64,000 nt of DNA from positions 1-64,000 of the forward strand of contig JAJPHM010000031.1 of the NCBI GenBank assembly GCA_021325295.1, in the 5' to 3' direction. This DNA is from Nitrososphaeraceae archaeon (GTDB lineage Archaea; Thermoproteota; Nitrososphaeria; Nitrososphaerales; Nitrososphaeraceae). This document shows positions 26,994 through 29,817 of the stretch, piece after piece. The position numbers were made by a program, and so were the translations under genes. The notes under the pieces are model-generated. The model saw only the letters and a list, made by a program, of their open reading frames with translations. It had not been told where the DNA came from and ran no database searches. Every line of letters begins with the position of its first letter. Position 1 is the stretch's first letter.

Positions 26994-28496
26994 ATGATAG
27001 ATATACTTTCAACTCCGATTCTGATTACAGTCATACTGGGAGTTGTCGGGCTGGCAATACCCGTAATTGATGCTGGCAAGCGTGAAAGGGGGGCAAATAG
27101 GAACAAGCTTTTCAGCGGAATATCTCTTGGAGCAATTATACTGGCCATCTGCCTTATACTTTTCAGAATATTTTCTGGAGAAATCTCTGGATCTGTAGTT
27201 TTTAGCAAGGATGTACTCTCTGATGATCTCTTTGGATCTTTCTTTGCCATTGCCCTACTCATAGTTTCAGCGATGGTAGCTGCATCTTCATGGAACTACA
27301 TGAAGAGCCGGTCAAATCCTGCAGCGTACTATTCTCTAATCCTTCTCTCAAGCATAGGAATGGTGCTTATTGCATACTCTACCGATCTTGTTATGCTTCT
27401 TGTTTCTTGGGAGCTGATGTCAATACCTACTTATGCTTTGGCGGCATTTGCAAAGCGCGATCCTGTTTCAAATGAAGCTGCGATAAAATACTTTATGTTC
27501 GGCGCACTATCCTCGGCGCTTCTTGTATTTGCAATAGGCCTTGTTTATGGGATCGCCGGAACTACAAACATTGGCGATGCTATACACGCAATGTCAAGTT
27601 TAAAGCCTGATCTAGTTCCAATAGGTCTTCTTGCGGTTGGTCTGTTTATTGCCGGCTTTGGATTCAAGATGGGGCTGGTGCCCTTCCATATGTGGCTACC
27701 AGATGCATACGAAGGTTCGCCTACAACCATCGGAGCTCTCTTGGCTGCCGGCACAAAGAAGGCTGGCTTTGCAGCGGCTCTTCGTGTCATTGTACTTGGC
27801 ATGTTTGTCCTGAATGTAGACTGGACATTTGCTCTGGCCGTGATTGCAGTCTTTACCATGACTTTTGGCAACTTGGGGGCACTTGTGCAGAAAAGTGTGC
27901 CAAGGATACTGGCCTACTCTAGCATTGCCCAAGCTGGTTACATAATGATAGGCTTTGCGCTAGCTCCGTATTCAGATCAGGCGCTCACCGGATCACTTTT
28001 TCACATCATAAACCATGCTGTCATGAAATCTGCCGGCTTTATAGCTGCAGCTGCTGTGGCATCTGTCTTTGCCAGCTATAGCCTAGAAAAGTACAAGGGG
28101 CTTGGTCGGAGAATGCCGATAACTGCAATTGCCTTCTCAATATCTTTGCTTGCCCTAGCCGGTGTGCCTCCGCTCAATGGATTCTGGAGCAAGCTTGTAC
28201 TATTTGGAGCAGCCATCAACAGCGGCTCGCACGTAGCATGGGGTCCATGGCTTGCAATAGCTGGAGTCCTTAATAGCGCGCTGTCGCTTGGGTATTATGC
28301 TTGGATAATACGGAAGATGTATCTTGAAGAGGCACCTGATATGACAAAGGTCAAGGAGCCTAGGGCCATTGTAGCAGTGCTAGTCTTTGCAATTGTCTTT
28401 ATGGTGGGATTTGGAGTATGGTACGGTCCACTGCTAAATTTTGCATCTCATGCAGTGCCTGATCTGGCCACACTTCCTTTGCCTGTCCACCGATAG
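26994..28496 (+). CDS. nuoN: Complex I subunit N
   Basis: A 500-residue antiporter-like subunit with ~14 helices. VSWELMSIPTYALAAFAKRD contains the pump glutamate; FKMGLVPFHMWLPDAYEGSP and the SIAQAGYIMIGFAL segment are typical. Last gene of the operon. No nuoE, nuoF or nuoG is present, so the electron donor is unlikely to be NADH through the usual module. Confidence 0.9.
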   Translation: MIDILSTPILITVILGVVGLAIPVIDAGKRERGANRNKLFSGISLGAIILAICLILFRIFSGEISGSVVFSKDVLSDDLFGSFFAIALLIVSAMVAASSWNYMKSRSNPAAYYSLILLSSIGMVLIAYSTDLVMLLVSWELMSIPTYALAAFAKRDPVSNEAAIKYFMFGALSSALLVFAIGLVYGIAGTTNIGDAIHAMSSLKPDLVPIGLLAVGLFIAGFGFKMGLVPFHMWLPDAYEGSPTTIGALLAAGTKKAGFAAALRVIVLGMFVLNVDWTFALAVIAVFTMTFGNLGALVQKSVPRILAYSSIAQAGYIMIGFALAPYSDQALTGSLFHIINHAVMKSAGFIAAAAVASVFASYSLEKYKGLGRRMPITAIAFSISLLALAGVPPLNGFWSKLVLFGAAINSGSHVAWGPWLAIAGVLNSALSLGYYAWIIRKMYLEEAPDMTKVKEPRAIVAVLVFAIVFMVGFGVWYGPLLNFASHAVPDLATLPLPVHR

Positions 28497-28516
28497 AAGT
28501 CAGAATACTACTATCA

Positions 28517-28836
28517 GGCTCCGTTAACTTGAGCATCATCTATCGACAGTCAATGCTTTGGGATGTACCTTATTCATATGCTCGTAGATTAACATCCTTG
28601 AGCTTTGCACCGCAATATTTGCAAACCAACCATCCTTCTCCTTTCTGCTTTGCTGTAATGGATTGATGATGAGTTCATTTACCATTTCATCAACAGTTAG
28701 ACCTCTATCTTTGGCCATTCTCTTTATTGTCTTGGCTGTACGTATGTTCTCTTACTGTCAGTACAGAAGACCATCCATTCTCTGGCATGTTGCTATTGAT
28801 TGATAGTCAAATATGCATTCTTAAGTTAACGGAGCC
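28517..28836 (+). mobile_element. 320-bp MITE-like insertion with inverted ends and 7-bp target duplication
   Basis: The left end GGCTCCGTTAACTTGAG (28517-28533) and right end CTTAAGTTAACGGAGCC (28820-28836) are inverted repeats that match at 16 of 17 positions. ACTATCA occurs directly outside both ends (28510-28516 and 28837-28843), as expected for a target-site duplication. It has no room for a transposase; the interior holds a broken zinc-finger gene. The insertion sits 20 bp after nuoN. I infer a non-autonomous element or IS remnant; the IS family is not assigned. Confidence 0.8.
28536..28718 (-). pseudogene. Frameshifted zinc-finger gene inside the MITE
   Basis: The frame from ATG 28718 begins MAKDRGLTVDEMVNELIINP and ends YEHMNKVHPKALTVDR. 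The middle of that frame has no cysteines, yet the next frame reads GWLVCKYCGAKLKDVNLR there. Joining the frames gives C-x2-C...H-x4-H, a C2H2 finger like others in this window, so two compensating frameshifts probably broke it. Whether it was cargo or part of the element is open. Confidence 0.55.
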
Positions 28837-28953
28837 ACTATCAAATTAAAAAAGCTAAAAACCCTGCCTACAATCTGGGTGACGGATCATTTTGCTGACG
28901 TTAGCGTAATATCTGGAATCGGACTGGCGGCCTGGTAGCCCAGAGTAAAAGAG

Positions 28954-29817
28954 TTAGAACTGGACAGCACTTAGGTCGGTAAGATGCTCAAGCTGTTCCA
29001 TCGCAGTTTTGTTGCCTTGAATCTTGTACAACTCATTCTTTGCCTTTACGGAATAAGAAAGGTACAGCTTGTCCATTCTGTTGACAAACCCTTTTGAGCC
29101 ATTATTTTTCCTTACTAGCATATTAAAAAGCCTGTTTTCATTGTTCCAGTCTATGAGGTCGTCATGGATCTGGTAGGCTATTCCAAGTAAATTACCAAAT
29201 GCCGCCATATGGCGAACGTTATCTTCGCTGGCCCCTCCGATTATAGCTCCGATTTTTGCGGATGCTTCAAAAAGCGAGGCAGTTTTGTACTCCAGAACCT
29301 TGATATAATCATCTTCTGTTATTTCAGGAGCTTTTCCCATCTTTATTTCCATCATCTCACCTTCGCTCATCTTGGCCGCCGCATTAGCAAGCTCGCTCAG
29401 TATGCGCGGGTTTTTCAGCTTGGATCCTATATAGAGTATAACTCCAAGCACAAAGTCTGCTGTCAGGATACTGCTATTGTAGCCATATTTAACGTGAAAA
29501 GATGGCTTGCCGCGGCGGACATTTTCCTCGTCTATTATGTCGTCATGGATTATCGATTCAGTGTGCAAAAGCTCGATTGCAGAGGCTGCCGCATAGGCAT
29601 CTTCTTTTGCTCCGCCTGCGGTTATGCTCTCTGCAGATAGTACCAAGATAAGTGGCCTTATGCGTTTGCCGTTGTCGCATGCATAAGCCAGAGGGGCATG
29701 GAATTCAGACCAGCTATACAGGTCAAGCTCGCGCTTTAATGCGTCATCAATCTTTGATAAATATTCGCTAAATTGTTCAGTCAGAGGATTAGCTTCGGCT
29801 GTTTTCCACTTGCTCAA
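28954..29817 (-). CDS. Polyprenyl (geranylgeranyl-type) diphosphate synthase
   Basis: A 287-residue trans-isoprenyl diphosphate synthase. The first aspartate motif is HDDIIDEENVRRGKPSFH (D-D-x2-D) and the second YQIHDDLIDWNNE. It condenses IPP with allylic diphosphates to make C20 or longer chains for ether lipids. Chain length cannot be set from sequence by eye. The gene stands alone; the lipid reductase-like gene at 15567 is functionally related. Confidence 0.85.
   Translation of the reverse strand: MSKWKTAEANPLTEQFSEYLSKIDDALKRELDLYSWSEFHAPLAYACDNGKRIRPLILVLSAESITAGGAKEDAYAAASAIELLHTESIIHDDIIDEENVRRGKPSFHVKYGYNSSILTADFVLGVILYIGSKLKNPRILSELANAAAKMSEGEMMEIKMGKAPEITEDDYIKVLEYKTASLFEASAKIGAIIGGASEDNVRHMAAFGNLLGIAYQIHDDLIDWNNENRLFNMLVRKNNGSKGFVNRMDKLYLSYSVKAKNELYKIQGNKTAMEQLEHLTDLSAVQF

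Follow-up and report, generated by a model that had tools for sequence, protein, structure and literature searches.

The stretch of DNA analysed here (the window) is 64 kb long and corresponds to G000:C14:1-64000, in an archaeal genome of 2.69 Mb and 79 contigs designated G000. Within it, two genes encoding a nuoN-like subunit and a polyprenyl synthetase converge on a spacer of 457 bp, and between their 3' ends lies a short element bounded by inverted and direct repeats and bearing the remains of a gene (Table 1). A preliminary reading of the sequence alone had placed this element right after nuoN; its left flank does start 13 bp past the nuoN stop codon (28496), and its setting is the spacer between the convergent genes.

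Table 1. Features of the cassette and its neighbours, by position in the window
Feature	Position	Strand	Evidence or remark
Left neighbour, nuoN-like subunit (Proton_antipo_M)	26994..28496	+	
Left target duplication ACTATCA	28510..28516	.	sequence
Whole cassette	28517..28836	- (sense strand of passenger gene)	terminal and direct repeats; end-to-end homology to L066:7586-7907 and L068:6704-7032
Terminal inverted repeat GGCTCCGTTAACTTGAG	28517..28533	+	first 16 bases are those of the end of fossil IS6-type element G000:C59:10214
Passenger pseudogene (RHH-like N-terminus and C2H2 finger)	28536..28788	-	three frame switches relative to intact relatives
Palindrome-like site TTGACTGTCGA	28543..28553	-	10/11 to TTGACWGTCAA; within 3' end of passenger gene, 27 bases from opposite end of cassette
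Palindrome-like site TTGACTATCAA	28800..28810	-	10/11 to TTGACWGTCAA; first base 27 bases from its end; immediately precedes passenger gene
Terminal inverted repeat GGCTCCGTTAACTTAAG	28820..28836	-	
Right target duplication ACTATCA	28837..28843	.	sequence
Right neighbour, polyprenyl synthetase, convergent with nuoN	28954..29817	-	

The terminal inverted repeats agree at 16 of 17 positions (18/20 over 20 bp) and ACTATCA lies on both sides, as first reported. When the entire window was scanned for 17-bp inverted repeats having at least 14 matches and identical 7-bp flanks, this was the sole case in 64 kb, and no such structure arose in 20 shuffles of the window. The figure of 320 bp, originally given for the interior, is the length of the whole element including its ends, and the interior measures ~286 bp. 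Related elements have target duplications of 8 bp; the 8-base flanks of the window cassette are TACTATCA and ACTATCAA, which suggests that its 7-bp repeat may be a former 8-bp duplication from which one base has been lost.

The convergent pair is retained in 11 genomes of other genera (the window's own genus is represented by the window genome alone), with spacers of 15-270 bp, and in all 11 the spacer lacks the cassette. Subtraction of the cassette and one copy of the repeat brings the window spacer to 130 bp. The relatives' spacers are too diverged to align and contain no conserved sequence, leaving the exact empty ACTATCA site unreadable there. We conclude that the window element is an insertion. 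Conservation of the inverted repeat at this site in relatives, which the sequence-only reading had taken as the mark of a terminator or regulator, was thus not encountered. A terminator or regulator of this kind, serving nuoN or the polyprenyl synthase gene, would suit an element that adjoins two convergent 3' ends and has a strong computed RNA fold (z = -3.5), but a long inverted repeat yields such a fold by itself, and homologous cassettes occupy unrelated sites in another genome (G027, below). With the repeat missing from every relative whose spacer was read and no Rfam family for the element, a conserved terminator or regulator is refuted as an explanation and must be regarded as exceedingly improbable. 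The further suggestion that the insertion alters the 3' end of the complex I transcript finds no support in convergent genes whose spacer is unconserved among relatives; an effect on the nuoN transcript end is possible, and nothing in our analysis speaks for it.

The gene within the cassette had been described as a C2H2 finger gene split by two frameshifts. It is indeed a broken C2H2 gene, although the frame switches number three when it is compared with intact relatives, it lies on the minus strand, and it has in addition a region resembling a ribbon-helix-helix (RHH) domain. Intact passenger proteins, of 76 and 77 residues, are encoded by two cassettes, G027a and G027b (P0001, P0002), of a genome from another family in the same order. 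Their N-terminus, MPERGWSVLTVRE, is followed by two apparent helices, as in the ribbon-helix-helix pattern, and a C2H2 finger of the form C-X2-C-X11-H-X4-H is present in both proteins and in the read-through of the window copy. The pattern fits a predicted protein with an RHH-like N-terminus and a C-terminal C2H2 finger. No match above cut-off was obtained from Pfam or NCBIfam, and neither of the weak curated matches (DUF7557, E 0.014; an Arc-like repressor family, 0.12) is convincing; matches in the PDB were to helical repeats only and were discarded as meaningless. Elsewhere in the window genome, a gene for a protein of 125 residues (L072:4571-4948; G000:C76:19570) begins with MPEKGWKSITVRE and resembles the N-terminus of the cassette protein; just upstream of it are repeated AAGTTACGGTAA-like sites that are operator-like in appearance.

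The window copy and G027a differ at 20 first, 15 second and 37 third codon positions (of ~76 each; p = 1.3e-4). Between G027a and G027b we obtained a dN/dS of 0.23 (p = 2e-4), from 15.5 changes at 48 synonymous sites and 16.5 at 180 non-synonymous sites. The third-position bias and the low dN/dS imply that the protein was selected through most of this divergence and that the window gene broke late; as read from these substitution patterns, the passenger protein is shown to have been under purifying selection before the window copy was disrupted. The passenger gene is the native cargo of the cassette family, neither debris nor an accidental fragment, and no copy of the cassette contains a transposase gene.

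This family has a restricted distribution. G027 carries three cassettes (G027a, G027b and G027c) of ~322-329 bp that align end to end with that of the window; together these are the four full-length cassettes known, from two genera, of which G027a and G027b are intact and the window copy is dead and single in its genome. The target duplication of G027a is 8 bp (TATTATTC), that of G027c is decayed and none is recognisable at G027b. Further copies of the cassette thus came only from other genomes, and a search of the window's own genome yielded no second one. A sample of 70 genomes of the same family contained no cassette, and 400 genomes sampled from the order and 400 from the class returned only the window genome, G027 and G053, a groundwater Thaumarchaeota MAG of the same genus as G027 and the same order as the window; one GTDB-wide scan returned only a G053 fragment. 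Kinship with G053 places the window, too, among the thaumarchaea. The two G053 fragments, left (L069:2061-2217) and right (L083, around 1501-1582), lie on different contigs, each fused to unrelated sequence, as if the cassette had been split by rearrangement or deletion. A protein search found no homologues of the passenger in plasmids or viral contigs; six single matches to the end pattern in viral contigs had no second end and were dismissed as chance.

A search of the window genome for the cassette ends, as had been proposed, did recover insertion sequences with near-identical ends. A complete IS6-type element of 711 bp (C25:43413-44123), with ends GGCTCTGTTAACTTAA and an 8-bp duplication TCTGCCGG, encodes a protein of 213 residues that matches DDE_Tnp_IS240 (4.5e-11) and, below that model's cut-off, an IS6 model (7e-29). 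At C59, the C-terminus of a fossil transposase adjoins an end identical in 16/16 bases to the left end of the window cassette. Equivalent 16/16 identities link the left end of G027a to an insertion-sequence end in its own genome (G027:C12), and the right end of G027a and left end of G027b to one in the same-genus genome (G053:C23). Moreover, the IS6-type ends of G027 and G053 read GTAAAC where those of the window genome read GTTAAC, and the cassettes of those genomes likewise read GTAAAC. Since the cassette ends track the variants of the resident insertion sequences in this way, mobilisation in trans by a resident IS6-type transposase is probably the best reading of the shared ends and of insertion at unrelated sites. 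Duplications of 8 bp, as expected of IS6-type elements, occur at G027a and the C25 element, compared with 7 bp in the window and none at G027b. Many contigs of the window genome (L007, L008, L011, L013-L018) stop ~90-105 bp inside IS6-type ends, GGCTCTGTTAACTT, so that breaks in the assembly lie at a multi-copy insertion sequence.

Near both ends of every full-length cassette is an 11-bp palindrome, TTGACWGTCAA, or a version that differs from it by one base. Distances from the two ends are 37/38 in G027a and in G027b, 35/37 in G027c and 27/27 in the window. Relative to G027a, the window spacing falls short by 10 bp at one end and 11 bp at the other, approximately one helical turn on both sides; kinship among the three G027 copies means that their spacings are not independent evidence. 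Two such palindromes did not occur together in any of 20,000 shuffles of each cassette, and six of the seven exact copies in the G027 genome belong to these elements (G027a and G027b have four between them, and the 197-bp element described below has two). The left palindrome starts 22-29 bases upstream of the passenger start codon and directly follows an AT-rich stretch, a possible TATA box for a leaderless gene. The right one sits within the gene's final codons (Leu-Thr-Val), and coding constraint explains its conservation in part.

Two smaller elements have similar sites. About 150 bp from G027b is a non-coding MITE of 197 bp (L068:6354-6550; G027:C14) with ends AAGACAGTCAACTTAAGG, an 8-bp flanking repeat TGTCTTTA and two TTGACWGTCAA palindromes, each 29 bases from the nearer end. 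In the window genome, a 63-bp pair of IS6-type ends (L074:4052-4114; G000:C34:5051-5113), with no flanking repeat seen, encloses one central near-palindrome, TTGACAGTTAT (9/11), at 28 and 26 bases from its ends.

That the passenger protein binds the palindromes is, as judged from these arrangements, somewhat favoured. Alternatively the transposase or a host factor might bind them, with the passenger acting elsewhere, for example in regulating host genes. The 197-bp element, having palindromes and no intact gene, would accord with such a binder, and is only weak evidence for it because a protein can act in trans; the palindrome is, however, absent from 14 IS6-type ends of the same genomes, and in every cassette copy it immediately precedes the passenger gene. 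We consider another binder unlikely.

It might also be argued that the element is an ordinary MITE holding a piece of a captured host gene, with gene and palindromes alike irrelevant to movement. The sequence common to cassettes and IS6-type elements is limited to the outer 16-18 bp, the window passenger gene is broken, and the 197-bp neighbour of G027b has evidently moved although no intact gene lies within it, all of which would be expected on that account. Against it, homologous cassettes from two families all have this gene as their content, intact in two copies, and its substitutions are strongly biased to third codon positions, making this a still less likely explanation. The initial designation of the element as a MITE is correct insofar as it denotes a non-autonomous transposable element with inverted repeats and a target duplication; because the passenger is native and was once selected, "mobile insertion cassette" describes it better than a plain MITE.

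The element is almost certainly a mobile insertion cassette. The explanation that best accommodates these data, to which we assign a probability of roughly 0.7, is that of a dead, transposase-less mobile insertion cassette that used an IS6-type transposase and whose passenger is a DNA-binding protein with sites at the cassette ends. For its movement the window cassette would once have relied on a transposase supplied by resident archaeal IS6-type insertion sequences, and the passenger protein of an intact copy would bind the palindrome TTGACTGTCAA at both ends. Bound at the left palindrome, in its own presumed promoter, the protein would repress its own gene (autoregulation); bound at both, in fixed helical phase inside the transposase sites, it may help or hinder pairing of the ends. 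A direct role of the protein in transposition is tentative and, from the sequence features described, rather doubtful. Equally speculative is the proposal that a parasite without a transposase makes its own end-binding protein, whose helically phased sites would recruit, license or restrain the IS6-type transposases of others, so that the parasite controls the timing of its movement.

MIC231-type cassettes consist of insertion-sequence ends around a gene other than a transposase gene, and it is in this that the present element resembles the type from Bacillus cereus: its ends are those of resident insertion sequences and its passenger, intact in G027a and G027b and broken in the window, is no transposase. 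It differs in being archaeal, in its IS6-type ends and size of ~325 bp, and in having a small, predicted DNA-binding passenger for which each end offers a candidate site. Mobile insertion cassettes have been described in B. cereus and depend on an active transposase, possibly supplied by a related insertion sequence in the genome (PMC6542083, PMC3129680). Two entries of the IS6 family lack a transposase, MITEBth2 and MITEHarch3 (PMC6807381), and a review of the family includes a pair of MITEs (227 and 336 bp) that have no intervening reading frames (PMC7986276); whereas MITEBth2 and MITEHarch3 are by description free of reading frames, the cassette is filled by a gene that was under purifying selection. 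ISDsp3, the single IS6-family member noted to have a passenger gene, is similar in placing that gene inside an IS6-type element (PMC7986276); by its description it is classed as an insertion sequence, presumably with its own transposase, and is bacterial with a hypothetical protein as passenger. Archaeal IS6-type elements, whose place in the IS6/IS26 family is disputed, have ends whose consensus extends over at least 18 bp, and elements such as ISH14 and ISC735 resemble the cassette in their short terminal repeats, many starting GG, and duplications of mostly 8 bp (PMC6807381). The cassette ends recur in the resident IS6-type elements, which do not have the two TTGACWGTCAA sites; a further difference from the cassette is that archaeal IS6-type elements carry a transposase gene. 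Insertion sequences are counted in a survey of elements integrated into thaumarchaeal genomes, and its main text makes no mention of MITEs, zinc fingers or cargo (PMC6563490). We found no published description of the present cassette in the open-access literature.

What is new in this analysis is the symmetric pair of TTGACWGTCAA sites near both cassette ends, and the reading reduces to a simple question, whether or not the passenger protein binds the palindrome. Thaumarchaeal IS6-type elements, so far poorly described, gain in the cassette a member that bears cargo. Non-autonomous elements of prokaryotes are usually viewed as empty shells awaiting a transposase; if our reading is true, a minimal cassette with only a DNA-binding gene and sites at its ends would mean that such parasites encode their own control of the transposases they borrow.
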